DNA of 64,000 bases from Brevibacterium siliguriense (lineage in GTDB: Bacteria; Actinomycetota; Actinomycetes; Actinomycetales; Brevibacteriaceae), in assembly GCF_900105315.1 (NCBI RefSeq), contig NZ_LT629766.1:1674001-1738000 (forward strand). Direction: 5' to 3'. This document shows, piece by piece, positions 2,627 through 12,943 of this stretch. The translations under genes and the position numbers were made by a program. How positions within the stretch are numbered: position 1 is the first letter of the stretch; each line of letters opens with the position of its first letter. The notes under the pieces are model-generated. The model worked only from the letters and a program-made list of their open reading frames with translations, was not told the origin of the DNA and did no database searches.

Positions 2627-3001
2627 GGGGATGATCGGTTTCGACGTTGGACACTGCGTCGGGAGAAGCGGGCCGAGAATGCAGAGTCATCTCGTTAATG
2701 TCCTCTGCAAAACAATAGGTGCTAAGTCTAACAACCGCACCGATTTCGCCCTCGCTGCCTGATAGAGCGCGAGCTGCGAATCCGTCAGCCTAGAGTTGCC
2801 TCTGCTCTAGTTCCTGGCGTCGCTTAAGAGGCCACTGCTTCAGGTACATGTTGGGGGTGCCTGAGGGACTTTCACTCAACTCCGTTCGTTGGCTTACGTG
2901 TTCGTGCGATAGCCAGAACCTAAGACACTACTTCACGAACTGCGCCCGGAGAAGTCCTGACAATCTGCCGACGGACGCGGGTTCGATTCCCGCCATCTCC
3001 A
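2627..3001 (+). ncRNA. ssrA: Transfer-messenger RNA (ssrA, 10Sa RNA)
   Basis: tmRNA rescues stalled ribosomes and tags the nascent protein for proteolysis. The 5' end GGGGATG pairs with CATCTCC at the 3' end to form the acceptor stem, followed by the conserved ATCGGTTTCGAC. The T-arm is present as GGTTCGATTCC just before the 3' end. The resume codon GCT is at 2721, and the reading frame 2721-2762 gives the tag AKSNNRTDFALAA then TGA, with the typical ALAA degradation signal. The genomic sequence after the stem is ACG, so the mature CCA end must be added enzymatically. The last 16 bases of the gene are also the left attachment site of an integrated element, which rebuilds the 3' end on integration. 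Confidence 0.95.
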
Positions 3002-3003
3002 CG
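2986..3003 (+). repeat. attL core, 18-bp direct repeat
   Basis: ATTCCCGCCATCTCCACG covers the end of the tmRNA T-arm and acceptor stem and matches 12920-12937 exactly. Flanking bases differ on both sides of the two copies, so 18 bp is the full extent of identity. Confidence 0.9.
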
Positions 3004-3005
3004 CT

Positions 3006-3038
3006 AAGGCCTCGGGTTCCCAGTGAATCCGGGGCCTT
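3006..3038 (+). terminator. Element-supplied terminator for tmRNA
   Basis: AAGGCCTCGG and CCGGGGCCTT form a 10-bp stem (one G-U pair) three bases after attL. It takes the place of the chromosomal terminator that integration moved to 12944-12972. Confidence 0.75.
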
Positions 3039-3090
3039 CCGCTTGTTTAAGCGGATCGTGAGGGTTTTCCGTTCCGATCACGAATGACCA

Positions 3091-3160
3091 GGACTACCCA
3101 TAGATTAGCACAGGACTAGTCCTATACTAGTCTCATGGCGAACAAATCTAGTTCTAGTGG
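3091..3160 (+). promoter_or_regulatory. Integrase promoter and left arm-type sites
   Basis: ACTAGTCC (3115-3122) and ACTAGTCTC (3126-3134) lie 11 bp apart, and two more CTAGT units follow inside the start of the integrase gene (3148-3152 and 3154-3158). A matching pair with the same 11-bp spacing is found near the right end (12852 and 12863). TATACT at 3123-3128 would be a -10 box only six bases before the integrase ATG, which suggests a leaderless transcript that integrase bound to the arms could repress. Confidence 0.5.
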
Positions 3161-4358
3161 AGATTCCCGGACCAAAGCGAAGAAGCTCCCACCCGGAATC
3201 AACCTCACACCAGGCGGCGAATACCGCGCCCGCGTCTACTTCCAGGGCAAACAACAGTCCATCGGCCAATTCCAGACCATCACCGACGCGAAGGCCGCAC
3301 GCTCAATCGCACAGTCTGAAATCGCGCGTGGCGTGTTCGTCCCCATGAGCGTCCGCAAAGCCAAGGCCAAAGAGGAACAGCAGAAACGTGACCGCGCCAT
3401 GGTCACTGTCGATCACGTTGCGGAACAGTTCTGGAAGTTCCTCAAATCGACCGGCAAAGCTCAGGGCACCATATACACATATCAGTCCCGGTACCGCACC
3501 CATATCGCACCGAGGTTCGGGCAGCAGCCGATAACGGATATAACCGTTACACAGGTTGAGGACTGGCATGCAGGACTACTCAAAGCCAAGGGGCAGGGCG
3601 TGTCCCGCTCCGTGTACCTCACCATTTCGTCACTGTTCAACTACGCAGCCGGTAAGGCAAATGGCCTCAGCTCCGCATTCACCCCATACATCGAGACCTC
3701 ACCAGTACAAGTCTCAGGAGCCACGAAACACCGCCCAGAACGCCGTGAGAGTGAGCCGGTGGCAACCGTGGAGCAGATCGAGTTCCTAGCCTCGCACAGC
3801 GGCAAATACAGGCTGGCGATTCTTCTCTCTGCGTGGGCTGCGGTAAGGCTGGGGGAGTTGCTAGCTTTACAGCGTGCCGACCTCACTCGCGGGGACGGGT
3901 TCTACTGGTTACGCATCTCCAAGCAGGTGCAAGCCCGTGGGAAAGGCCTATATGAGACTGCACCCAAGTCTGAGGCCGGTTATCGCACGGTACCTGTCCC
4001 GGCTGCGTTGAACGATGAAATCGAATCGCACTTGCAGACCATCCCGAACGTCAAAGACTCACTACTGTTCCCTCGACTGGGAGGGGAGTGGACTCACCCC
4101 AATTCTTTGCGGAATGCGTTTAACCGTGCCCGTGACGAGTGGAACGCCGAGAACCCCAAAGACGCGTTGGACAATTTCACTTTCCACGGGTTAAGGCATA
4201 CCGCACTAACTCACATCGGGCAGGCCGGGGCGACGTTGGAGGAATTGAAGCGTTACGCTGGTCATTCGTCTTCCGAGGTCGTGGCGAAGTATCAGCACGC
4301 TACCCGTGATCGTCTGGCTATGTTGGCTGGGAAGCTGTCAGGGCAAATTGGCGGTTGA
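3135..4358 (+). CDS. Tyrosine site-specific integrase of the element
   Basis: The 407-residue recombinase should catalyse integration at, and with the excisionase excision from, the tmRNA 3' end. The N-terminal 60 residues resemble an AP2-like arm-binding domain (GEYRARVYFQGKQQSIGQFQ). A core-binding SAM-like domain follows at about 85-180, and the catalytic domain occupies 210-400. Catalytic residues are visible: R238 (AAVRLGELL), H351-x-x-R354 (HGLRHTALTH), H377 (AGHSSSEV) and the nucleophile Y386 (AKYQHA). The ATG has no clear Shine-Dalgarno sequence but a close -10 box. The family, place next to attL and direction are those of tmRNA/tRNA-targeting integrases of actinobacterial elements. 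It looks intact. Confidence 0.95.
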   Translation: MANKSSSSGDSRTKAKKLPPGINLTPGGEYRARVYFQGKQQSIGQFQTITDAKAARSIAQSEIARGVFVPMSVRKAKAKEEQQKRDRAMVTVDHVAEQFWKFLKSTGKAQGTIYTYQSRYRTHIAPRFGQQPITDITVTQVEDWHAGLLKAKGQGVSRSVYLTISSLFNYAAGKANGLSSAFTPYIETSPVQVSGATKHRPERRESEPVATVEQIEFLASHSGKYRLAILLSAWAAVRLGELLALQRADLTRGDGFYWLRISKQVQARGKGLYETAPKSEAGYRTVPVPAALNDEIESHLQTIPNVKDSLLFPRLGGEWTHPNSLRNAFNRARDEWNAENPKDALDNFTFHGLRHTALTHIGQAGATLEELKRYAGHSSSEVVAKYQHATRDRLAMLAGKLSGQIGG

Positions 4359-4940
4359 CATTTCTGTCTGCTGGTGGGTGGTTAAGGGAACGAAGTATCC
4401 CGATTTTCGACCGCTACCACACAATAATTAGCATATATAAGTGTGGCGTAATTACAAACGACGTCCAAATGCTGAGACTTGAGCCACTGTAATCATATTG
4501 TTACATATGGTGTTTCCCTGTGGATAACACGCATTGCAGGGGCGGCCTCGAAAAGCCGGAATTGCACGACGCGCCGGAAAAGACCTTACGGCACCGGAAT
4601 TAATGCAACAACAAATGGGTGGATGATTTATCCCTAACCTGTGGATAAGCCGGATAAATGCAAACCACGACGAGTAACTACGCTGGTATATCACTTGAAA
4701 TGCCCGTAAAATTATACCCGTGAACAACTGCTAGTGACCGCCTCCGAGTGAGGTTGGTGAAACTCCACCACCAATCACTATGGTTGCTCATGCCGGGGTG
4801 ACCAGATCAAGCCGGGAACAAGCAGAACCGCCTACCCATACTTTGGCGAGTCGAGGTAGACGGTCCTGTCGTTATGTATTTGTCGCGCTGCGGTCTCCTT
4901 CTTGCACCCGTAGCGCAATAGCAGACAGAGAGGTGAATCA
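4359..4940. other. AT-rich intergenic region, candidate replication origin of the element
   Basis: These 582 bases hold no convincing gene. They contain CCACAC (4417-4422) and GTGTGG (4441-4446) as inverted arms around 18 AT-rich bases, two perfect DnaA boxes read as TGTGGATAA (4519-4527 and 4640-4648), and an inverted TTATCC/GGATAA pair around the second box. AT-rich DNA with DnaA boxes beside a RepA-type ATPase gene suggests an origin. The promoter of the excisionase operon should also lie here. Confidence 0.45.
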
Positions 4941-5150
4941 ATGTCTACACGTCACAACAGTACCACCACCATCCCCGCACTTTCAATCTCGGATTGCGCC
5001 AAACGCGGCGAAGTACACGAGAACACCGTCCGCCGCTGGATCGCAGACGGCACCCTCCCCGCCTACAAGCTTGGCAGGCAGGTGCGCATCCACGAAGCCG
5101 ACTTCGCGGCCCTGTACACCCGCATCCCCGCCTACGGGGGTGGCCTGTGA
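4941..5150 (+). CDS. xis: Excisionase-type helix-turn-helix protein
   Basis: This 69-residue protein has the winged-helix fold of excisionase/MerR-like DNA-binding proteins: SISDCAKRGEVHENTVRRW, then IADGTLPAYKLGRQVRIHEADF. It should act as recombination directionality factor for the integrase and may also regulate. GAGAGGTG lies 8 bases before the ATG. The stop codon overlaps the GTG start of the next gene by four bases, so this gene opens the early operon of the element. Confidence 0.8.
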   Translation: MSTRHNSTTTIPALSISDCAKRGEVHENTVRRWIADGTLPAYKLGRQVRIHEADFAALYTRIPAYGGGL

Positions 5151-5509
5151 TCGACCACGAGACGTTCGAGCGCATCAAGGGTCAAGTGGACGCAGAAGTC
5201 GCTCTACGAGGTGTCTCCCGTGGCCGTCGGCAGAAGATGCTGAAACAGGCACTCAGAGACTATGAGCAGCAGACCGCCACTGAGCAGTGGTCTGTCCCTG
5301 CCCCCGGCTTGCAGTCCGGTATCGACCCGCGCACGCGACGTTCTGGTCACACAACCTCGGACCCGACTGTGCGGATCGCACTGCACCGACGTGACTGCAA
5401 GCGGGACGAGTGCGGAACGTGCGGCAAGTCAAAGGTGGCTGCACGTCGAATCGTCACGAACGCGATTCTCCATGACCTCGGGATGAACGGGGCCGGTGGT
5501 GGACGATGA
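5147..5509 (+). CDS. Hypothetical element protein with a Cys motif
   Basis: This 120-residue protein starts at a GTG that overlaps the excisionase stop (GTGA), preceded by GGGGGTGG. The first half is helical and charged (FERIKGQVDAEVALRGVSRGRRQKML). The second half has CKRDECGTCGKSK, a possible metal-binding cluster. I do not recognise the family. Translational coupling to the excisionase and the RepA-type ATPase downstream places it in the replication/excision operon. Confidence 0.6.
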   Translation: MIDHETFERIKGQVDAEVALRGVSRGRRQKMLKQALRDYEQQTATEQWSVPAPGLQSGIDPRTRRSGHTTSDPTVRIALHRRDCKRDECGTCGKSKVAARRIVTNAILHDLGMNGAGGGR

Positions 5510-5624
5510 CCAGGCCCGCCGCCGTGACTTCATCAAGGAAGTCATTACCGGCCTCAACGCGGTAGAAGCACGCCGCACCCATTACCAACGGTTCGACGAA
5601 GCGAAGAACCGCCCGCAGCGGTAA
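5499..5624 (+). CDS. Possible 41-residue small protein
   Basis: A GTG at 5499 opens a short frame overlapping the end of the previous gene by 11 bases and encoding a highly charged peptide (DDDQARRRDFIKEVITGLNA). The overlap style matches the rest of the operon. It has no recognised family, and coding status is uncertain. Confidence 0.4.
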   Translation: MDDDQARRRDFIKEVITGLNAVEARRTHYQRFDEAKNRPQR

Positions 5625-5686
5625 CCGGCCACTCTCGGCCAATTCAATTTTCAGACCCATTTAGGGCTATTCACAAAGGACTCCAA

Positions 5687-6910
5687 TTGGAAGAAACTCT
5701 GAAACTCCGGCGCACAAGCGAGCTTCCCCCGGCCAAGCATCCCCAATGGTTGGGCATCGGCTGGATTCCAAAGGCGGAAATCACCGTCCTCGTCGGCCCC
5801 GAGGGCATCGGTAAATCACTCCTATGGGTGAGAGTCGCAGCAGCAGTCACAACAGGCCGACCCCTCCCGGAAATGCGCATCCCGAAGCGTGCACCGGCAA
5901 CAGTTGTCGTGATCGTCTCCGAGGACGGGCGCGGAGAAGTAGAAGAACGCTTGAAGCTCGCCGGGGCAGATCTAGAGAACATTCTGTGGTTCGGTCCCGA
6001 AGAGGACGGCACGGGCGCACCCACGTTCGCACGAAATCAGGGCGGCGTGCCCATGCAGAACCTCGCCGATGGTGTGCGCGAACTCGAGCAGGCACCCGCA
6101 TTGCTCGTGGTAGACGCTTGGCTCGACACCGTGGACGGTGGCATACAGGTCAAAGACGGGCAGCAGGCACGCGCAGCTCTCGCACCGTGGAAGCGATTCG
6201 CAACGAACTTCGGGACCGCCGTGATGCTGTTGACCCACACGAATCGCATTCAGGGCGCATCCACCCGTGACCGCATGGGCGCGACTGCTGTACTCCGGCA
6301 GAAAGCCCGAATGACGCTGTTCGCAGATCGCCCGGAAGAGGACTTCGACAACATCTATGTGGGGCCGGACAAGGCCAACAACACGGGAATCTCTAACGCC
6401 GTGAAGTACACCAAGAACGTCGTGCAAGTACGGCCAAGAACGGAAGAGGACCAGGGCACTACAGCGCAACTCCTGTACCCGTCCGATGTTGGGCAGACCA
6501 TCCACGCAGAGATTGCTTCATGGGAAGAGCAGCAGAGGCAGGCAAACAAGAAGCCGTCAAAGGCTGAGGAAGTTGCCGAAGAGATTAAGCGGCTCATGGA
6601 GTCGCGCGGCATCAACGTTATGCCTGTGGCTGATCTTGACCGGCACCTAAAGGCAATGGGGTTCGGTGACACCGCTATCAGGAATGGCAAGAAGATTGCC
6701 GGTGATTCTTCCCTTGAGGATCGCGCTGGTGGTGGTTGGAAGTTTCATGCTGACCCTAGTTTCGTTAACTCTTCCATCTCGTTAACTAGTAACGAAACTA
6801 ACGAGACTAACGAAACTGAGCTCTCACTAAACGCCTGGTGTGGCAACTGCGGAGATGCATACCACTTCGAAGGCTCCGAACTTTGCGAGAAATGCGAGAC
6901 CCACAAATGA
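5687..6910 (+). CDS. RepA-type AAA/RecA-fold ATPase with C-terminal zinc ribbon
   Basis: This 407-residue protein has the fold of hexameric replicative helicases of the RSF1010 RepA type. Walker A is GPEGIGKS (residues 37-44), followed by the VVVIVSEDGR strand, Walker B LLVVDAWLD, and a conserved LLTHTNR sensor stretch. After residue about 280 comes a winged-helix-like region, and the last 30 residues hold CGNCGDAYHFEGSELCEKC, a zinc-ribbon pattern. TTG at 5687 is the chosen start, with AAAGGA about seven bases upstream. A role in unwinding DNA for element replication is inferred from fold and from the origin-like region upstream. The 3' end of the gene contains the NET-NET-NET tandem repeat discussed as iteron-like DNA. 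Confidence 0.75.
   Translation: MEETLKLRRTSELPPAKHPQWLGIGWIPKAEITVLVGPEGIGKSLLWVRVAAAVTTGRPLPEMRIPKRAPATVVVIVSEDGRGEVEERLKLAGADLENILWFGPEEDGTGAPTFARNQGGVPMQNLADGVRELEQAPALLVVDAWLDTVDGGIQVKDGQQARAALAPWKRFATNFGTAVMLLTHTNRIQGASTRDRMGATAVLRQKARMTLFADRPEEDFDNIYVGPDKANNTGISNAVKYTKNVVQVRPRTEEDQGTTAQLLYPSDVGQTIHAEIASWEEQQRQANKKPSKAEEVAEEIKRLMESRGINVMPVADLDRHLKAMGFGDTAIRNGKKIAGDSSLEDRAGGGWKFHADPSFVNSSISLTSNETNETNETELSLNAWCGNCGDAYHFEGSELCEKCETHK
6757..6816 (+). repeat. Iteron-like 9-bp repeats, cluster A
   Basis: The unit TAACGARAC occurs three times in perfect tandem (6790-6798, 6799-6807, 6808-6816), preceded by inverted copies GTTTCGTTA (6759-6767) and a near copy ending at 6784. The block lies inside the end of the RepA-type gene. 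A second cluster lies 300 bases downstream. Confidence 0.6.
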
Positions 6911-7104
6911 GCATCTTTACGGAACAACTAGATCAGTACGGATACAACCGGCGCATGGCCGATAGAACCACTGTGCAACCGGCTGTAATGGCGGATGACT
7001 CTAACGGCCTTGTAATTCGTCATGGACGGTCCGTGATTGTCTTAGCTGCCGATGAAGCCGAACGTCTTATTGGCGAAATGACGGAGGTGCTGCACGATGC
7101 CTAA
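6907..7104 (+). CDS. Hypothetical 65-residue protein
   Basis: The ATG at 6907 overlaps the stop of the RepA-type gene by four bases (ATGA). The protein is small, soluble and acidic at the C-terminus (VLAADEAERLIGEMTEVLHDA), with NGLVIRHGRSVIVL as a likely beta hairpin. There is no recognised family. Tight coupling indicates co-expression with the replication protein. Confidence 0.6.
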   Translation: MSIFTEQLDQYGYNRRMADRTTVQPAVMADDSNGLVIRHGRSVIVLAADEAERLIGEMTEVLHDA

Positions 7105-7297
7105 CCCAGTCTCGTTAGTTTCGTTAGATTCGTCATGTGTTAATGACATGGTGAAAGTTAACGAGACTAAGAGAGTCACCGATATGGACGGTCATAAATG
7201 GCCGATCACCGGCTACCTATGCGCTATCTGCAAATGGCCACTAATCCCCGTCAAGAACAGCACCACACACCCTAACTGCGAAACGGAGAGGCCATGA
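7097..7297 (+). CDS. Small zinc-finger-like protein
   Basis: A 66-residue frame starts at ATG 7097 with GGAGGTG nine bases upstream, overlapping the previous stop by eight bases. CAIC and HPNC near the C-terminus could bind one metal ion (LCAICKWPLIPV, then THPNCE). The N-terminal coding DNA carries the second iteron-like cluster. Function is unknown. Confidence 0.6.
   Translation: MPNPVSLVSLDSSCVNDMVKVNETKRVTDMDGHKWPITGYLCAICKWPLIPVKNSTTHPNCETERP
7109..7167 (+). repeat. Iteron-like 9-bp repeats, cluster B
   Basis: GTCTCGTTA (7109-7117) and GTTTCGTTA (7118-7126) lie in tandem, with a degenerate third copy at 7127-7135 and the opposite-strand form TAACGAGAC at 7159-7167. This is the reverse complement of the unit in cluster A. 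The short inverted repeat CATGT/ACATG (7134-7150) lies between them. Confidence 0.55.
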
Positions 7298-7431
7298 CCT
7301 AAGAACAACGCCGTCAAAACCTCCTAACCCTCCTGCACGCACTCAAACACGCTTACCGAACCACACGAGAAGAATGGGAAGAACTTGAGCGACTACATCA
7401 AAGGATCACGCCTACTCCACAATCCCGGTGA
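7294..7431 (+). pseudogene. Small gene with an in-frame stop at codon 3
   Basis: ATG at 7294, with GGAGAGG just upstream and overlapping the previous TGA, reads ATG ACC TAA and then stays open for another 42 codons with a sensible helical peptide (EQRRQNLLTLLHALKHAY and on to TGA at 7429-7431). A single C-to-T change from CAA would restore a 45-residue protein. It is either a recent nonsense mutation or a leader-like stop, and I cannot tell which from one copy. Confidence 0.5.
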
Positions 7432-7699
7432 AGACGAAGGCCTGTCTTTAGCGTTCATGGGCCTCCCCGCCGCCTCAATGAAGACATGGATGCACCTACA
7501 GAACTACTTCGCAGCAGGAGAAACCACACCATGCGCAGGCCGTAACGAATGGCTTAGCAGCCGCGCAGCAGACAAACAAACCGCAATCCGCCTTTGTGGG
7601 GACTGCCCAGCCAAGGCCGCTTGCAGGGACTTCGCCCAGACCAATAATGAGTCATTCGGAATCTGGGGAGGCCACGACTTCTCGAAAGGCAAACCATGA
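7385..7699 (+). CDS. WhiB-like iron-sulfur transcription factor
   Basis: This 104-residue protein has the four cysteines of the Wbl family at 50, 71, 74 and 80 (C-x20-C-x2-C-x5-C, with CGDCPAKAAC) that bind a 4Fe-4S cluster, followed by FGIWGG (residues 91-96), the turn motif needed for sigma-factor contact. The basic C-terminal AT-hook tail of full WhiB proteins is short here (HDFSKGKP). The start is uncertain: TTG 7385 lacks a good ribosome-binding site, and ATG 7457 or 7478 are alternatives that leave all four cysteines. Wbl proteins are common on actinophages, where some modulate host transcription; a regulatory role for this element is inferred. Confidence 0.85.
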   Translation: MSDYIKGSRLLHNPGEDEGLSLAFMGLPAASMKTWMHLQNYFAAGETTPCAGRNEWLSSRAADKQTAIRLCGDCPAKAACRDFAQTNNESFGIWGGHDFSKGKP

Positions 7700-7866
7700 G
7701 CACGCCCAAACTCCATGTGCGCCTAAACCGAGGACAAGACGGCAAACCATACATAGCCATAACCCGAGGACAACTCGCATGGATGCGGGTGAATCTCTCC
7801 GAAGTGCCAAACCTAATCAACGCATTAGCAGATCTAACAGAACAGGAAAACACAAATGACCGATGA
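7696..7866 (+). CDS. Hypothetical 56-residue protein
   Basis: The ATG at 7696 overlaps the WhiB stop by four bases. The protein is MSTPKLHVRLNRGQDG followed by two predicted strands and a helix (LSEVPNLINALADLTEQ). It is not recognised. It belongs to a chain of genes in which each start overlaps or abuts the preceding stop. Confidence 0.55.
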   Translation: MSTPKLHVRLNRGQDGKPYIAITRGQLAWMRVNLSEVPNLINALADLTEQENTNDR

Positions 7867-8014
7867 CCCCGTAGCAAACCTAGTCCGACTCCAACTAGTC
7901 GCCCTCACAGAAATGCGCGGACTTTTGCGCGAACAGAACAGCCAACTAATCAGACTCGAAAACAAAGTCGATGCACTATTCATCGCAGCAACCGAGAGGA
8001 AAACAAATGAGTGA
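7856..8014 (+). CDS. Hypothetical 52-residue coiled-coil protein
   Basis: The ATG lies eleven bases inside the previous gene. The peptide is mostly one amphipathic helix (LVRLQLVALTEMRGLLREQ, NSQLIRLENKVDALF) with leucine spacing of a short coiled coil. There is no recognised family; this type of small helical protein is frequent in phage early regions. Confidence 0.5.
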   Translation: MTDDPVANLVRLQLVALTEMRGLLREQNSQLIRLENKVDALFIAATERKTNE

Positions 8015-8189
8015 CCGGCAGCATGAAATCTCGTGGGGAGTCAGGGTAAACAAACCCCCACACGATATGACACGCGAAGAACTCGAAGACGCTCTCTACT
8101 CAGTCGCCGATTACGCGTCACGGCGACTATCCGAGTGCGTCGCACTGAAAGACATTATCAGCAAATCCATCACGAAGAAAGAAGACTGA
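8007..8189 (+). CDS. Hypothetical 60-residue protein
   Basis: The ATG at 8007 overlaps the preceding stop, with GAGAGGAAA upstream. The sequence is charged and helical (MTREELEDALYSVADYASRR), ending in KKED. It is unrecognised, and it is followed without a gap by the next ATG. Confidence 0.55.
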   Translation: MSDRQHEISWGVRVNKPPHDMTREELEDALYSVADYASRRLSECVALKDIISKSITKKED

Positions 8190-8393
8190 ATGTTCACCGA
8201 AGCTGATCATTTCCATGACCGAAATCGTGTGCTAGCAAAACAGGCCATAGCACAGCCAGCGAACCTCGCAGACGGCACAACCGGAGTAGTGCTGTACTGG
8301 GACAAATACCCACTAACCATGACGAATCCTGAAGCAATCAGGGTTGCAACTCTCATTGCCGACACCGTGGAGGCAAACCGTGACCGACGATAA
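8190..8393 (+). CDS. Hypothetical 67-residue protein
   Basis: The ATG directly follows the stop of the preceding gene. The protein is small and soluble, with LADGTTGVVLYWDKYPLTM and a C-terminal helix (EAIRVATLIADTVEANRDRR). It is not recognised. Its end overlaps the next start by 14 bases. Confidence 0.5.
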   Translation: MFTEADHFHDRNRVLAKQAIAQPANLADGTTGVVLYWDKYPLTMTNPEAIRVATLIADTVEANRDRR

Positions 8394-8511
8394 CCAAAAT
8401 GACCATAAAGCCGCAGCCGAACTATTCGCAGAATGGTTCGAAGACAACATTAAAACCGACAACATAACCGACCAATTCTTCACCACCGAAACCGAAGCAG
8501 AGGACAACTGA
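8380..8511 (+). CDS. Hypothetical 43-residue acidic protein
   Basis: A GTG start lies inside the end of the preceding gene. The peptide is strongly acidic (AAELFAEWFEDNIKTD, then TETEAEDN). Its coding potential rests on the overlap pattern and on the next ATG only three bases after its stop. Confidence 0.45.
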   Translation: MTDDNQNDHKAAAELFAEWFEDNIKTDNITDQFFTTETEAEDN

Positions 8512-8513
8512 CC

Positions 8514-9374
8514 ATGAGCATCAACACCAGCCACAACAACCTGTACACCTACCGTGCACCCCACGACCCCCGCAGCCAGCAACGCAACCTCGACACCCTG
8601 TACTCGATGCTGGGACTCAAACAACCCACCACATACAAAGACACGAGAGACCTCATCCTCGCAGCACCTTCAGCCGACGATGTGGCCCTACGACTCGCAT
8701 ACGCCGCCTACGAAACCGACAACCCTAAGAAACTCGTGGCAGATGCGATCAAAGAACTACAGGCAGCACAAGCAGCCGAAGCACTCAAAGACGCATTCCT
8801 CAGAGCCGAACGCACAGCAGGCAACACCACCATCGGCAACCTCGTAGACCAGGGGGTAGAGGACACCCGGGAAGCGTTCGAGAAGGACACCCGGGCACTC
8901 ATCGAAGCAGCCACCCACCTCGACGCAACTACCCCCCTCGACGCTGAGGCAGCCGTCGCCCTAGACGCAGGGGTCCACCTCACCACAGCCCGGGGTATCC
9001 TCGCACGCCTCGGAACATATGCATCAATCCACACACACGCAGGAGCCAACACAGGCGCACCATCACACCTCACACAGATACTCCCAATCATTGAGCTGCC
9101 CGAGATTGTGAAGGAACAAGTGTACCGAACACCAACAGAGGCAGACCCAACCGCGAACCCCAACGATATCAAGGGAACACTGACAGTTCGACAGCTTGGA
9201 CGTGATGCACAAAGCAACATTGATGACACAATCATCGGCATTGCACGAGGCGACTACGAAGGTGTCACATTCCGTTTCGGCACACGAGGTGAAGCCAACA
9301 GAAATGGTTCAGTGATACGGAACGCATATGTGAAAGATGTGATCGACAACAAGCGTGCATCGTTCGGGTACTGA
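8514..9374 (+). CDS. Hypothetical 286-residue protein, last gene of the early operon
   Basis: This is the largest unassigned gene of the element. The first 160 residues are mostly helical and rich in Ala, Asp and Thr (DVALRLAYAAYETDNPKKL, RTAGNTTIGNLVDQGVEDT). The last 110 residues look like mixed alpha/beta (ILPIIELPEIVKEQVY, TIIGIARGDYEGVTFRFG, ending NKRASFGY). There is no signal peptide, membrane segment or motif I recognise. It follows the previous stop by two bases and is followed by two stem-loops that close the operon. It could be element-specific cargo or a structural or packaging-interference protein; none of these is supported by sequence alone. Confidence 0.65.
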   Translation: MSINTSHNNLYTYRAPHDPRSQQRNLDTLYSMLGLKQPTTYKDTRDLILAAPSADDVALRLAYAAYETDNPKKLVADAIKELQAAQAAEALKDAFLRAERTAGNTTIGNLVDQGVEDTREAFEKDTRALIEAATHLDATTPLDAEAAVALDAGVHLTTARGILARLGTYASIHTHAGANTGAPSHLTQILPIIELPEIVKEQVYRTPTEADPTANPNDIKGTLTVRQLGRDAQSNIDDTIIGIARGDYEGVTFRFGTRGEANRNGSVIRNAYVKDVIDNKRASFGY

Positions 9375-9394
9375 CAACACGTAAGCGAAACCGT

Positions 9395-9491
9395 GTCGGG
9401 CTGAGAGAGTTTTGTTTCACTCTCTCAGCCCCGACGCACCTGATAGGGCACCGCCCGGTCCCGGGGTGGGGTCACAGTCGCCCCACCCGGC
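9395..9491 (+). terminator. Two successive long stem-loops
   Basis: GTCGGGCTGAGAGAGT pairs with ACTCTCTCAGCCCCGAC (9395-9435; one bulged base), and CCGGGGTGGGG pairs with CCCCACCCGG further down, again with one bulge. Neither has a T-run. They separate the early operon from the next gene and may act as terminator or as a processing or packaging signal. Confidence 0.5.
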
Positions 9492-9555
9492 ATAGCGATC
9501 TCTCTACGGCAAACCAAGGACCTTAAAGAACCCTGAGAACATTATTGGAGGCACT

Positions 9556-9825
9556 ATGAGTGCTAGAGAACACCAGGCCGATGACCTGGAATTGGCAAGA
9601 GCCATGCTTGACCGGCTCACTCAACTTTTTGACGATGATATGACTCCGGCGCACGTTGTGGAGAAGCTTCCGGGCCGGATCAAGGAACTACGTGATGATA
9701 TTCGTGCTTTGGAAGCTCTCGCGGCTGAGGCTGCTAAACTTGTCCCGATTCGTGGTGAGTTGTCGCCGGGTGAGGATAAGGCTGCAATGTTCCGGACGAT
9801 CATGGGCGAGGTTGCGGATGGATAA
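9556..9825 (+). CDS. Hypothetical 89-residue helical protein
   Basis: The ATG is preceded by TTGGAGG, an excellent ribosome-binding site. The protein is almost all helix and acidic (ELARAMLDRLTQLFDDDM, RIKELRDDIRALEALAAEA). No family is recognised. It overlaps the next gene by eight bases, so the two are coupled. Confidence 0.6.
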   Translation: MSAREHQADDLELARAMLDRLTQLFDDDMTPAHVVEKLPGRIKELRDDIRALEALAAEAAKLVPIRGELSPGEDKAAMFRTIMGEVADG

Positions 9826-9955
9826 GGAGCAATTCCAGAAATCGTTCGCTCACCTGTCAGCGGATGAGTTCGCTGAACTCGTGGTTGGGTTCAATGAGGA
9901 TGGGCAACCGATCGCTCGTGATGCTGACGCGTTTCGGGTGTTGTGGCATATCTGA
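9818..9955 (+). CDS. Hypothetical 45-residue protein
   Basis: The ATG at 9818 overlaps the preceding gene. The peptide is QFQKSFAHLSADEFAELV followed by a short loop and FRVLWHI. It is unrecognised; coding status is supported by coupling and by codon use like its neighbours. Confidence 0.5.
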   Translation: MDKEQFQKSFAHLSADEFAELVVGFNEDGQPIARDADAFRVLWHI

Positions 9956-10094
9956 TCCGCGCCGTTCCTGGGGTGCCTCTGGAAATCATTAACTACACGC
10001 GCGCGCCGTATGCCGGGTGGGTTATGTCAGTGTAGTGGACTACTATTGCTTTACCGTGTTTGGGCGGTGTCGAGTATTGAATATTGAGGAATAG

Positions 10095-10478
10095 ATGATG
10101 AAGCCTTTTAGGATTGTCGGCGCAACTGTCGATTTGACCGAGGAGTCTCTACGTGAATTCGAGGGTGGCGGGAACGCTCGCGTGACGATTGTGTTCGGAC
10201 GTAAGCTCAATTCGTTTGAGCAAAGGCGCGTTCGTTCTGAAGTTGAGAACCGCGTAAATGATGACGCGCGTGTGAACGTTTCGAGCACGAAAGCTGTTAT
10301 CGAAACACGTGAGTTCGAGGCGGTTAAGTCGTTCATTGAGGCCGCGAATTCTTACTCTCAGGAGTGGACTGAGGATGCTGGCCGGGAGCTTGATCGGGTG
10401 AAGACTGAACTACAGGGCGTGCAGGATGGTCTTAAGTCTCTGGTCCGCTGGCAGAAGCCTCAGCAGCAGTTCCTGTGA
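10095..10478 (+). CDS. Hypothetical 127-residue protein
   Basis: The start is ATG at 10095 or 10098, with TTGAGGAATAG upstream. The N-terminal half looks like an alpha/beta domain (ARVTIVFGRKLNSFEQRRV, ARVNVSSTKAVI). The C-terminal half is a helical stretch that could form a coiled coil (LDRVKTELQGVQDGLKSLV). It is not recognised. A short inverted repeat, GTAGT-GG-ACTAC (10032-10043), lies in the 139-base gap upstream and may be a promoter operator. Confidence 0.6.
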   Translation: MMKPFRIVGATVDLTEESLREFEGGGNARVTIVFGRKLNSFEQRRVRSEVENRVNDDARVNVSSTKAVIETREFEAVKSFIEAANSYSQEWTEDAGRELDRVKTELQGVQDGLKSLVRWQKPQQQFL

Positions 10479-10486
10479 GCCTCTGT

Positions 10487-10560
10487 GTGCCCCGTAGGGG
10501 CACTAACTAACTGAATATGTAGGTGGCCCCAGGGCTGGTCTTTTATGGCTGGTCCTGGGG
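10487..10560 (+). terminator. Stem-loops between two element transcripts
   Basis: GTGCCCC-GTA-GGGGCAC (10487-10503) is a tight 7-bp hairpin. It is followed by CCCCAGG (10527-10533) pairing with CCTGGGG (10554-10560) around a loop that contains two GCTGGTC copies. The second stem would cover an ATG at 10545, which argues for a later start of the HNH gene. Confidence 0.45.
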
Positions 10561-10586
10561 CATTTCTGTACCCAAATGGAGGGGTA

Positions 10587-11075
10587 GTGAAGACATGCAC
10601 TAAGTGCGGTGAGACTAAGCCGCTCGACGAATTTCACAAGAACAGCCGCGCCAGTAGCGGCAAGCGGCCCGACTGTAAGCAGTGCGTCAATGCAAGGAAT
10701 AGAGCGTGGGAGGTCGAGCATAGGGCCGAATATCTCGCTAAGAACCGTGAGCACATTTCCGCTCGCGCCGCTGCCTACTATCGAGGCCTGGACCCTAGCG
10801 TCTTTTGGGAGCGAACCTATCGTCAGAGGGCCGTGGCGTTCGGGTTCGTGCCGGTCATGGAGGCGTTTACCCGCGATGACCTGATCACCCAATATGGGGA
10901 TGTTTGTTTCCACTGCGGAGGCGAGTGGTCCGAGCTTGATCACTTCCCTGTTCCTGTGTCCCGTGGCGGTAGTCATGTGATCGAAAACGTGAAGCCCAGT
11001 TGCGGGCCTTGCAATCGACGATCATGGCGTGATGCATTGAATGATGCATCCAGTGATGCAATACTTGAGGCATGA
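10587..11075 (+). CDS. HNH endonuclease with N-terminal zinc ribbon
   Basis: The protein has CTKCGETKPLDEFHKN and CKQC at the N-terminus (a four-cysteine ribbon typical of small actinophage HNH proteins) and, in the C-terminal half, FHCGGEWSELDHFPVPVSRG followed by NVKPSCGPCNRRS, the His-Asn-His/ββα-metal nuclease core. GTG 10587 is chosen (162 residues), with GGAGG four bases upstream; ATG 10545 is possible but lies within a stem-loop. The stop overlaps the antitoxin start by four bases. In phages such nucleases act near packaging or as homing enzymes; which applies here cannot be seen. Confidence 0.8.
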   Translation: MKTCTKCGETKPLDEFHKNSRASSGKRPDCKQCVNARNRAWEVEHRAEYLAKNREHISARAAAYYRGLDPSVFWERTYRQRAVAFGFVPVMEAFTRDDLITQYGDVCFHCGGEWSELDHFPVPVSRGGSHVIENVKPSCGPCNRRSWRDALNDASSDAILEA

Positions 11076-11392
11076 ATGATACGAAGGTCAGGATGAACCC
11101 GAGCCGTAGGCAAGCGAAGCGTCTTTCGGTGTCGCTCACTGAGCGGGACATGACGGATTTGAAGGCTGTAGAAAACAGCCCAGAACACCTGGCAGAACTG
11201 CCGGGGAACCTCACCCCGGAGTCATCAGAGGCTGCTCTGGTCCATGCGATTTTTGAAGAAGGGATGAGGGCTGTGAAGGAACGTGCGCTAGAAGAGGTCT
11301 ATCGCCGGATCGGACAGGAAGAGCGGGAAGAGTCCCAGCAGAGACGCGCCCGCCTTAAGGGCCGCAATCGTGGTGGTTCGGACCTGCTGTGA
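11072..11392 (+). CDS. Putative antitoxin of a MazEF-type pair
   Basis: This 106-residue basic protein overlaps the HNH gene upstream and the toxin downstream by four bases each. The N-terminus has SRRQAKRLSVSLTERDMTDL, which resembles the ribbon-helix-helix start of plasmid antitoxins. The middle is helical (SEAALVHAIFEEGMRAVKER) and the C-terminus Arg-rich. The antitoxin role is inferred mainly from position directly before a MazF-like gene. Confidence 0.65.
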   Translation: MNDTKVRMNPSRRQAKRLSVSLTERDMTDLKAVENSPEHLAELPGNLTPESSEAALVHAIFEEGMRAVKERALEEVYRRIGQEEREESQQRRARLKGRNRGGSDLL

Positions 11393-11712
11393 CGAAGATG
11401 CTGCGCGGTGAGGTTTGGAGGGCCACTGTCAGCGAAGCCGGGCCGAAATTGTGGGTGGTCGTGTCGCATAATGCCAGGAACCGTGGGTTCGATTCTGTAC
11501 TGGCCGTGCGCGTGACCACTACCAATAAGAATGCTCAGCTGCCTACCGCGTTTGAAGTGCCACCAAATGAATGTATTCATGGCTGGATCATGTGTGACAC
11601 TCTCACGGAGATTTGGGAGGACGATCTGGTGGAGCAGAGTGCGGTGGGTGCAGTGAGTTCGGCTGTGATGAAGCCGCTTGAATCACATTTGCTTGCCGCG
11701 CTTGGATACTGA
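11389..11712 (+). CDS. MazF/PemK-family endoribonuclease toxin
   Basis: This 107-residue protein shows the family pattern: LRGEVWRATVSEAGPKLWVV at the N-terminus, the VLAVRVTTTNK strand, FEVPPNECIHGW, then IMCDTLTEIWEDDLVE and the C-terminal helix AVMKPLESHLLAAL. Family members cleave mRNA at short motifs. GTG 11389 overlaps the antitoxin stop; ATG 11398 would be an alternative. It probably stabilises the element in the host or acts in phage defence; both are inference. Confidence 0.8.
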   Translation: MTKMLRGEVWRATVSEAGPKLWVVVSHNARNRGFDSVLAVRVTTTNKNAQLPTAFEVPPNECIHGWIMCDTLTEIWEDDLVEQSAVGAVSSAVMKPLESHLLAALGY

Positions 11713-11722
11713 TCGATTTATG

Positions 11723-11755
11723 CCGGGGTGCCCTTTGTGGAGTGCCCCGGTTTTT
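11723..11755 (+). terminator. Rho-independent terminator after the toxin
   Basis: CCGGGG (11723-11728) and CCCCGG (11745-11750), extended by weaker pairs, are followed by TTTTT. It closes the HNH-antitoxin-toxin transcript before the convergent regulator module. Confidence 0.75.
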
Positions 11756-11841
11756 CGTGATTCACGGGTCTGTGTCATTTGGCACAGACACTCAGGTGTC
11801 GCAAATGTGATAGCTGGGGTCCGAGAACCCACCTATTCGTA

Positions 11842-12114
11842 TCACTCGAATGTCTCCGCTGTGAGTTCGTCCCCGTCCTCGACCGCGTAGAGAGCCATGC
11901 TCGAACGTGCGTAGAGGCGTTGTAGGGGTTTGATCGTGTCATCGTTGACCGTGAGCCGCCATGCACGGAGTTCGGGCCTGTATGACGCGCCTAGAGTCTG
12001 TAAGGCTTTCCGGGCGGCATGGAACTTGTGTGAGCGCGGCTGGTAGACGAGCGTAGCGAAGACCTCACTACCAGGGGCAGTGAGGTCTAGGCTATGACCA
12101 TCTATCTCGCGCAT
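11842..12114 (-). CDS. Hypothetical 90-residue protein
   Basis: It starts immediately after the stop of the regulator gene upstream (TGA then ATG). The sequence is alpha/beta (EVFATLVYQPRSHKFHAARK, LRAWRLTVNDDTIKPLQRLY) with an acidic end. It is not recognised. It is the last gene of a three-gene opposite-strand operon and is convergent with the toxin gene. Confidence 0.55.
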   Translation of the reverse strand: MREIDGHSLDLTAPGSEVFATLVYQPRSHKFHAARKALQTLGASYRPELRAWRLTVNDDTIKPLQRLYARSSMALYAVEDGDELTAETFE

Positions 12115-12369
12115 TCACACCACATGCAGTTCGCCGGTCGGCACAAAGTCCGCATCCACACCGAAGGCACGCTGGTCCTGCCCTGTGCGATGCAGGAGCG
12201 CGGCGCAGACATTGAGGTCGAGGTGCCCGCTCATGAGCTGTAGGCGCAGATCGTGCTGAGGCACCCCGCACAGGGTGGCCAGTTCGGGAACGGTCACCCC
12301 GTGATCTTTCATGCAGGCGCGAATGTTGCCCATGAACTTCGCTACTTGCTCTCTCACTGATTCATCCAT
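12115..12369 (-). CDS. Cro/CI-like helix-turn-helix regulator
   Basis: The 84-residue protein has a helical segment, NIRACMKDHGVTVPELATLC, followed by GVPQHDLRLQLMSGHLDLN, spaced like the five-helix XRE fold. GGAG lies eight bases before the ATG. As the only opposite-strand regulator near the right end it is the best candidate for the element's repressor. The match to the XRE family was judged by eye and is moderate. Confidence 0.55.
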   Translation of the reverse strand: MDESVREQVAKFMGNIRACMKDHGVTVPELATLCGVPQHDLRLQLMSGHLDLNVCAALLHRTGQDQRAFGVDADFVPTGELHVV

Positions 12370-12371
12370 GA

Positions 12372-12605
12372 TTACTCTCCATTGAGTGCGTTGTTGTATG
12401 CCTGTTTTGCTGTGGCGTGCTGGTCCCGTGTGGCCTTGTACATGTACACCAGGGATTCGAACACGCTGCTGTCAGTGTCACCATCCGCCGCTGCCGAGGC
12501 AATACCCCCAGCAAGATAGGTGAGCTGTGAATAAAGGCGTTCGACTTCACGGCTGTACATGAGCAGTTCGTCGGCTTTTGATTCGAGTGTGGTGGTCATT
12601 GTCAT
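12372..12605 (-). CDS. Hypothetical 77-residue helical protein
   Basis: This is the first gene of the opposite-strand operon. The chosen ATG (12605) is followed two codons later by another ATG with GGAAAAA upstream. The protein is helical throughout (LLMYSREVERLYSQLTYLAG, YMYKATRDQHATAKQAYNNA). No family is recognised. Confidence 0.5.
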   Translation of the reverse strand: MTMTTTLESKADELLMYSREVERLYSQLTYLAGGIASAAADGDTDSSVFESLVYMYKATRDQHATAKQAYNNALNGE

Positions 12606-12919
12606 TTTTCCAATCGGACTAAAGGCTGAAGTGTGAACCCTCCTCCCAAAACCCGAGCAACCGCAGAACACCCGATATCTCTACTTCGGGGATGACTCGC
12701 AACCTCCCTGTGTTGGGAAGCTGTGAGTCATGTCCTGAGCCGCCCGTAGCCATTGGGAGACCTCCACCCGGCCCCTAGGTGGATTGTGTTCCTTTGAGCC
12801 TCAGACTTGGTTTGGGTGCAACGCTGATGAAGAACCACCCGCACGAGACCAACTAGTCTCCTGCTAGTCCCGAAAATCAGTGATGAAACGTTCTCCCAGG
12901 TGAGCGGCGAACAATGGAT
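12606..12919. other. Right-end non-coding region with arm-type sites
   Basis: I see no gene here. ACTAGTCTC (12852-12860) and GCTAGTCC (12863-12870) repeat the 11-bp-spaced pair found at the left end. The promoter of the opposite-strand operon must lie in the first part of this region. Confidence 0.5.
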
Positions 12920-12937
12920 ATTCCCGCCATCTCCACG
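12920..12937 (+). repeat. attR core, 18-bp direct repeat
   Basis: ATTCCCGCCATCTCCACG, identical to 2986-3003. It marks where the original tmRNA 3' end was before integration. Confidence 0.9.
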
Positions 12938-12943
12938 TGTCAC

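Follow-up and report, generated by a model that had tools for sequence, protein, structure and literature searches.

The window analysed here, a 64-kb stretch of Brevibacterium siliguriense DNA (contig NZ_LT629766.1, positions 1,674,001 to 1,738,000), contains an island inserted at the 3′ end of the ssrA gene, which our data suggest is an intact phage satellite. Its length of 9,934 bp is the start-to-start distance between two perfect copies of an 18-bp direct repeat detected by repeat search, the attachment (att) sites attL (2986..3003) and attR (12920..12937); the target gene, which encodes the transfer-messenger RNA and was located with ARAGORN (2627..3002, plus strand), supplies attL with its 3′ end. 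The junction is supported by empty sites. An ssrA locus was matched in 55 of the 57 genomes of the genus, 30 loci were taken and, with the island's own locus left out, 29 were compared. In six of them (L042, L043, L044, L045, L046 and L052) the left-hand sequence, ssrA up to base 3003, abuts exactly on the right-hand one, from base 12938 onwards, the aligned bases being directly adjacent, and in the remaining 23 the downstream flank is diverged, missing or aligned in part only. An earlier note on this DNA had proposed a unit of about 9.9 kb bounded by an 18-bp direct repeat at ssrA, and the repeat search and the empty sites bear this out.

Next to attL lies the gene of a tyrosine integrase (3135..4358; 407 aa; PF00589, 1e-15), followed on the same plus strand by those of an excisionase-like HTH_17 protein of 69 aa (4941..5150; PF12728, 3e-11; TIGR01764, 9e-12), a 120-aa protein, p120, with a weak DUF7169 match below cut-off (5147..5509), and a 407-aa AAA_25 (RepA-type) replication ATPase with a TTG start (5687..6910; PF13481, 1e-25; also phage primase/helicase PHROGs). 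Between the integrase and excisionase genes, a low-GC stretch forms a putative replication origin (4400..4700). It holds two perfect TTATCCACA DnaA boxes (4519-4527 and 4640-4648), the only two in the whole window, where 0.10 are expected and none of 100 shuffles reached two, and these fall in the element's lowest-GC 400-base block (0.47), which supports the origin-like DNA of the earlier note. The perfect box is absent from all eight other elements scanned.

Further downstream, small genes that mostly overlap or abut (6907-8511) lead to the genes of two plus-strand proteins, p286 (8514..9374) and p127 (10095..10478), and beyond these lie an HNH gene, a toxin pair and three minus-strand genes (11842-12605). 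The small-gene chain and the opposite-strand module had both been recognised before, and family matches confirmed the integrase, excisionase, RepA-type ATPase, WhiB, HNH and toxin assignments. Virion and conjugation genes had been said to be absent. Searches with Pfam and PHROGs indeed returned no capsid, terminase, portal, lysin, relaxase or FtsK family among the ten main or the small island proteins (the 43-aa protein and the product of 12372-12605 were scanned with PHROGs only), and no convincing family for p286, p127, p120, p89 or the small proteins. However, virion-linked genes are not wholly absent from the island, since p127 has a homologue in a phage head module and p286 occupies the position of a capsid gene in a sister element.

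With the integrase as query, 11 of the 57 genus genomes gave a match at E <= 1e-30, the island's own included; three of the others are close (69%, 68% and about 55-56% identity) and seven, at 32-34%, are relatives of another kind. The close sisters are L014 (genome G461) and L016 (G023), both at tRNA-Ala and with integrases at 68-69%, and L015 (G446), which is also inserted at ssrA and has the integrase at about 55-56%. Ten of the island's genes have homologues in L014, in unchanged order (int, xis, AAA_25, p65, WhiB, p56, p60, p67b and two opposite-strand genes). L016 has homologues of six or seven (int, xis, WhiB, p60, HNH and one gene matched by both p65 and p67b), its replication protein belonging to another family (DUF3987), and the ssrA sister shares four (int, xis, AAA_25 and p66). 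Homologous loci lacking att repeats had been named as a finding that would speak against the unit, but L014 and L015 have both repeats (17 and 20 bp); L016 runs off its contig. Together with more distant relatives described below, seven repeat-bounded elements measure 8.96, 9.00, 9.51, 9.93, 10.01, 10.20 and 10.46 kb. Their target sites are ssrA (window and L015), tRNA-Ala (L014), tRNA-Tyr (L036), tRNA-Val (L037) and, for L023 and L038, the 3′ end of one type of gene, which we take to be yajQ-like.

Integrases are common in actinobacterial prophages, and one alternative is that the island is a prophage in decay whose late genes have been lost. WhiB, too, is common in actinobacterial prophages (PMC10023795). 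Yet the listed main genes are open and unbroken, with no truncated or broken late genes among them, the ten-gene order is kept in a sister from another genome, and the repeat-bounded elements at other sites are about as compact. The p286 protein also keeps its length (279-286 aa) at 68-84% identity in 39 of its 48 database relatives. Nothing was found that marks a decayed remnant of a full prophage, the other outcome that had been named as adverse, and we consider this origin very improbable.

The position that follows the small-gene chain is filled differently from element to element. In the window it holds p286, in L014 a 281-aa HK97 major capsid protein (L014:9708-10553; PF05065, 4e-16; PHROG_10, 3e-22; TIGR01554, 1e-15), and in L016 and L015 a protein of 250 and 255 aa, respectively (the p250 family), modelled as all-helical. 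The p286 model is also all-helical, at moderate confidence (predicted local distance difference test score 72.5). The slot is recognised as equivalent by p60 homologues shortly before it in L014 and L016 and by a p67b homologue likewise in L014, and for L015 by homology with L016. None of the listed open reading frames (ORFs) of L014 is long enough for a large terminase or portal, and its capsid protein had no tblastn match in the phage collection. Among the 396 genomes searched across the order, four contain the p250 family, namely the Brevibacterium genomes of L015 and L016 and those carrying L023 and L024. In L023, an att-bounded element of 10.2 kb, the homologue adjoins a small terminase gene (PHROG_1496, 5e-18) without a large terminase, and in L024 (E 1.6e-5) it adjoins an 855-aa tape measure gene (PF20155, 1e-22). 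The L024 locus (L024:6746-12470), from a different family of the order, has an AAA_25-like gene beside these two, and neither an integrase of its own nor an att repeat was found before the contig end.

In database sampling, p286 is wider than the p250 family, with 48 matches against 12, the latter including the own proteins of the two Brevibacterium genomes. The p286 relatives show 42-86% identity: besides the 39 mentioned above, four of 270-278 aa have 42-49% identity and five of 160-199 aa are probably fragments. The size of the source contig is stated for 44 of the 48 and never exceeds 10,524 bases, the next longest contigs having 10,376 and 10,348, which may reflect free or packaged units of about 10 kb, or merely short assemblies.

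The second link to phage heads is p127, which aligns nearly end to end with a 126-aa protein of L037 at 19% identity. The alignment scores 83 against 29 +/- 5 in 5,000 shuffles, none of which reaches 83, and the next best of 301 predicted proteins scores 50; BLASTP gives 6e-7 for the single pair and 3e-4 among 684 proteins. A profile of the two proteins detects those two genomes only among the 57 of the genus, and the database adds one more close relative (91%). In L037, an att-bounded element of 10.46 kb with HNH, terminase, portal, scaffold, capsid and head-closure genes, the p127 homologue lies between the scaffold and capsid genes. L038 has terminase, portal, scaffold, capsid and connector-type genes (by homology and PF05065), and its module DNA is 76% identical to that of L037 over 3.8 kb before a gap and 67% over 1.6 kb after it. 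The p127 homologue is missing from L038 and is therefore an accessory gene of the head module. No tail genes were seen in L037 or L038. In IMG/VR the L037 large terminase matches 18 loci, ten of which also match portal, scaffold and capsid; for four of these ten (L071, L072, L074 and L083) the ORFs were inspected, and no tail genes were seen within the ends set by the database. Of these four, L071 is identical with the L037 element, and the replication gene of L074 is identical to that of L038.

A search with the L014 capsid protein gave seven matches in six of the 57 genus genomes, its own included; the loci examined besides L014 were L035, L036, L037 and L038, those in G450:C55 and G014 being left out. 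The L035 capsid gene (L035:819-1661; 53% to that of L014; PF05065, 4e-21) is followed by small genes and then chromosome, with no head or packaging neighbour downstream, the upstream side being cut by the contig end. L014 and L035 are satellite-like elements of two Brevibacterium genomes, each with a lone HK97 major capsid gene. In L036 (L036:1782-10830), a 9.0-kb element at tRNA-Tyr, two ORFs make up the large terminase; a capsid gene is also present, a scaffold protein is matched weakly, and no portal was seen. Portal matches occur in four of the 57 genomes, namely G010, G450 (two) and, distantly (30-32%), G013 and G456; of this distant pair, the G013 match was examined and lies in a tailed prophage. 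The genus has a tailed prophage at L097 (2082-aa protein; PF10145, 5e-20).

Taken together, these comparisons lead us to read the unit as an intact integrative phage satellite of Brevibacterium, similar in mode to the phage-inducible chromosomal islands (PICIs), with a probability of roughly 80%. This reading is favoured by the lone capsid gene, the small terminase, the tape measure, the whole capsid modules and the similar size (9-10.5 kb) among the relatives. Backbone or slot proteins repeatedly occur with phage head or packaging genes, once with a tape measure, and never with a full tail or lysis set. The earlier note had left the choice between a phage satellite and a replicating cryptic island, and it is the comparison with the sister elements that clearly favours the former. 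An integrase, an excisionase, a replication ATPase and a toxin pair also occur on integrative islands, and the unit might instead be a self-replicating island of that kind (a small actinomycete integrative and conjugative element, or AICE, or an integrated plasmid), spread by mobilisation or transformation and unconnected with phages; p286 would then have some other role. The lack of a virion family in the island and of a matching phage record would fit such an island. However, no FtsK-type translocase or relaxase, the mark of AICEs and conjugative islands, was found among the scanned proteins, and p127 has its counterpart in a head module. Phage head or packaging genes are carried by sisters or by relatives of the slot genes, and the elements are alike in size; we judge a phage-independent island to be unlikely.

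As a satellite, the element would be moved by its integrase, which would recombine the 18-bp core at the ssrA 3′ end, the HTH_17 excisionase helping the reverse reaction; the families and att sites are observed. The excised circle would replicate from the DnaA-box region through the AAA_25 ATPase. Packaging and release would fall to a helper phage, which would be needed because none of the element's genes is recognised as a tail, portal, terminase, capsid or lysis gene. Judging from its position, p286, possibly with p127, may act on the helper head and most likely steer its assembly to a small capsid fitting about 10 kb. WhiB and the opposite-strand helix-turn-helix (HTH)-like protein probably act as the switch, and the genes of HNH and of the PemK pair could serve as cargo or interference genes.

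Several observations weigh against the satellite interpretation or the part that p286 is given in it. Neither a helper nor induction, a circle or a particle was observed. The stretch 9375-10095 matched only its own genome (1/57) and so offers no shared packaging site, the own genome gave no PF05065 match, and the 15-bp repeat of L038 is no longer than chance repeats in the list, having been picked for its place beside the integrase. PICI att sites are described as never occupied by prophages (PMC6092414), but in genome G027 the ssrA site holds an element with integrase and Amidase_2 genes, a prophage or fragment of one; because of this integrase and lysis-type amidase element, we did not file the island as a PICI. 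As for p286, it has no convincing sequence match (Pfam, PHROGs) or fold match (Foldseek) to capsid factors and no detectable homology to the p250 family, and it was not found in phage records or by pattern scans of IMG/VR and genome contigs, so that what ties it to particles is its position.

Since no relation of p286 to a known family or to the 250-aa proteins was detected, its capsid role is put forward as a hypothesis. From the slot position, we give a function as capsid-assembly or size factor close to an even chance, if slightly less. With Ccm, CpmB, Rcm, Sid and TcaP it shared no family or Foldseek match, although the model is of moderate confidence and no direct switch-by-switch comparison was made. 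A somewhat less probable, but still serious, alternative within the satellite interpretation is that p286 is cargo, for example a defence or superinfection protein, and that full-size helper heads are used, since cargo genes may tend to gather in the slot, p286 matches no capsid protein, and the phage-inducible chromosomal minimalist islands (PICMIs) of Vibrio do without capsid remodelling (PMC10803314). It is opposed by the capsid, small terminase and tape-measure genes that stand in the slot or next to its genes elsewhere, and by the lack of any PADLOC match for p286. Returning to the capsid role, we tentatively suggest that p286 and the p250 family could be helical capsid-remodelling proteins of a new type, belonging to a satellite family of Actinobacteria. 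Such a family would keep its excision-replication backbone and exchange, at one slot, the part used to hijack particles, be it a capsid homologue or a helical switch. If both are capsid switches, they would represent a further independent invention of capsid switching.

In regards to known satellites, the island resembles PICIs in having an integrase, a replication module and a specific insertion site flanked by att repeats, and by Pfam and PHROGs no structural or lytic phage genes, apart from p127 with its head-module homologue; candidates for a PICI-type master regulator are WhiB and an 84-aa opposite-strand protein with a weak repressor match, and the island measures 9.93 kb where PICIs are typically of about 12-15 kb (PMC6092414). 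Induction by a phage, packaging and interference with the helper are further traits by which PICIs are defined (PMC6092414). In staphylococcal islands the capsid-switch position is taken either by Ccm, a capsid homologue, or by CpmB or Rcm, which are helical, and SaPIbov5 (Ccm) and SaPIpT1028 (Rcm) resemble the window family as compact islands with a locus occupied by an HK97 capsid homologue in some cases and a helical protein in others; SaPIpT1028 also carries a MazF-like protein, as the window carries a PemK/MazF-type toxin (PMC12409344, PMC8569155). Unlike them, the island is from another host phylum, and p286 has no sequence relation to a known family and only a predicted role. Capsid-forming PICIs, as defined in a citation in PMC10690885, are approached by L037 and L038, of the same genus and size class, which have terminase, portal, scaffold, capsid and connector-type genes; the window shares p127 with L037 but has no capsid, portal, connector or terminase genes of its own. 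The Streptomyces satellites MulchRoom and MiniFlayer, one of which has an integrase, are likewise from Actinomycetota, but as described in PMC10690885 they carry packaging and capsid genes and no replication genes, the reverse of the present element. The Vibrio PICMIs are similarly very small, with an integrase, an excision factor, a replication gene and little else, but have other genes and another host, and no capsid factor is described for them (PMC10803314).

Satellites are to be expected in Actinomycetota, since predicted PICIs of this phylum are already mentioned (PMC10690885), and actinobacterial prophages below 15 kb may be satellites (PMC10023795). The earlier description of the island as an undescribed system is too strong as a whole, since phage satellites, including capsid-forming ones, are already known, as are proteins that switch capsids. 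The part that appears to be undescribed is a satellite family in Brevibacterium together with the p286 and p250 proteins: no title on Brevibacterium satellites was found in the open-access literature searched, subscription papers, including the original one on capsid-forming PICIs, being outside the search. Staphylococci, Vibrio and enterobacteria have well-studied phage satellites, and the best described actinobacterial ones that we found are the packaging-rich, replication-poor satellites of Streptomyces. The Brevibacterium elements, all near 10 kb, grade from a bare backbone through a lone capsid gene to capsid-forming elements, and such a graded series within one genus makes stepwise gain or loss of capsid genes directly testable.

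The plus-strand chain of small genes begins with that of a 65-aa protein without family match (6907..7104), a paralogue of the 8190-8393 product, and of a 66-aa protein with a zinc-ribbon-like Cys pattern, recognised by eye (7097..7297; 61% to a gene of L015). Next come the WhiB-like regulator of 104 aa (7385..7699; PF02467, 3e-9; 59% to L016 and 54% to L014), a 56-aa protein (7696..7866; 57% to L014), a 52-aa ORF product with no convincing family (7856..8014), the 60-aa p60 (8007..8189; homologues in L014 and L016), the 67-aa p67b (8190..8393; homologues in L014 and L016, the L016 gene being the one also matched by 6907-7104) and, from the ORF list, a 43-aa protein with a GTG start (8380..8511). 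Paralogues of 65-68 aa occur at least twice per element, at 6907-7104 and 8190-8393 in the window and at 7520-7723 and 8819-9025 in L014.

Between p286 and p127, also on the plus strand, are the genes of an 89-aa protein, p89, with very weak PHROG matches only (9556..9825; terminase small subunit, E 0.02; integrase, E 0.01) and of a 45-aa protein without family match (9818..9955). Beyond p127, on the same strand, follow an HNH/endonuclease VII-like protein of 176 aa (10545..11075; PHROG_1035, 9e-26; 41-45% to two L016 genes), a putative antitoxin of 106 aa with no convincing family, suggested by its position and overlap with the toxin gene (11072..11392), and the PemK/MazF-type toxin of 107 aa (11389..11712; PF02452, 2e-10). 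The minus-strand module encodes a 90-aa ORF product without family match (11842..12114), the 84-aa HTH-like regulator (12115..12369; weak repressor PHROG, E 0.008; no Pfam match; 56% to L014, whose homologue has a weak HTH_26 match) and a protein of about 77 aa (12372..12605; 48% to L014).

At the ssrA site itself, the G027 element (L096) carries a glycosyltransferase gene in addition to its integrase and amidase genes, with an att copy 10.1 kb away, and the site is thus common to unrelated elements. A 24-34-bp copy of the ssrA 3′ end is also present about 180 bases upstream of ssrA in L042, L043, L044 and other Brevibacterium genomes, and is perhaps the scar of older integrations.

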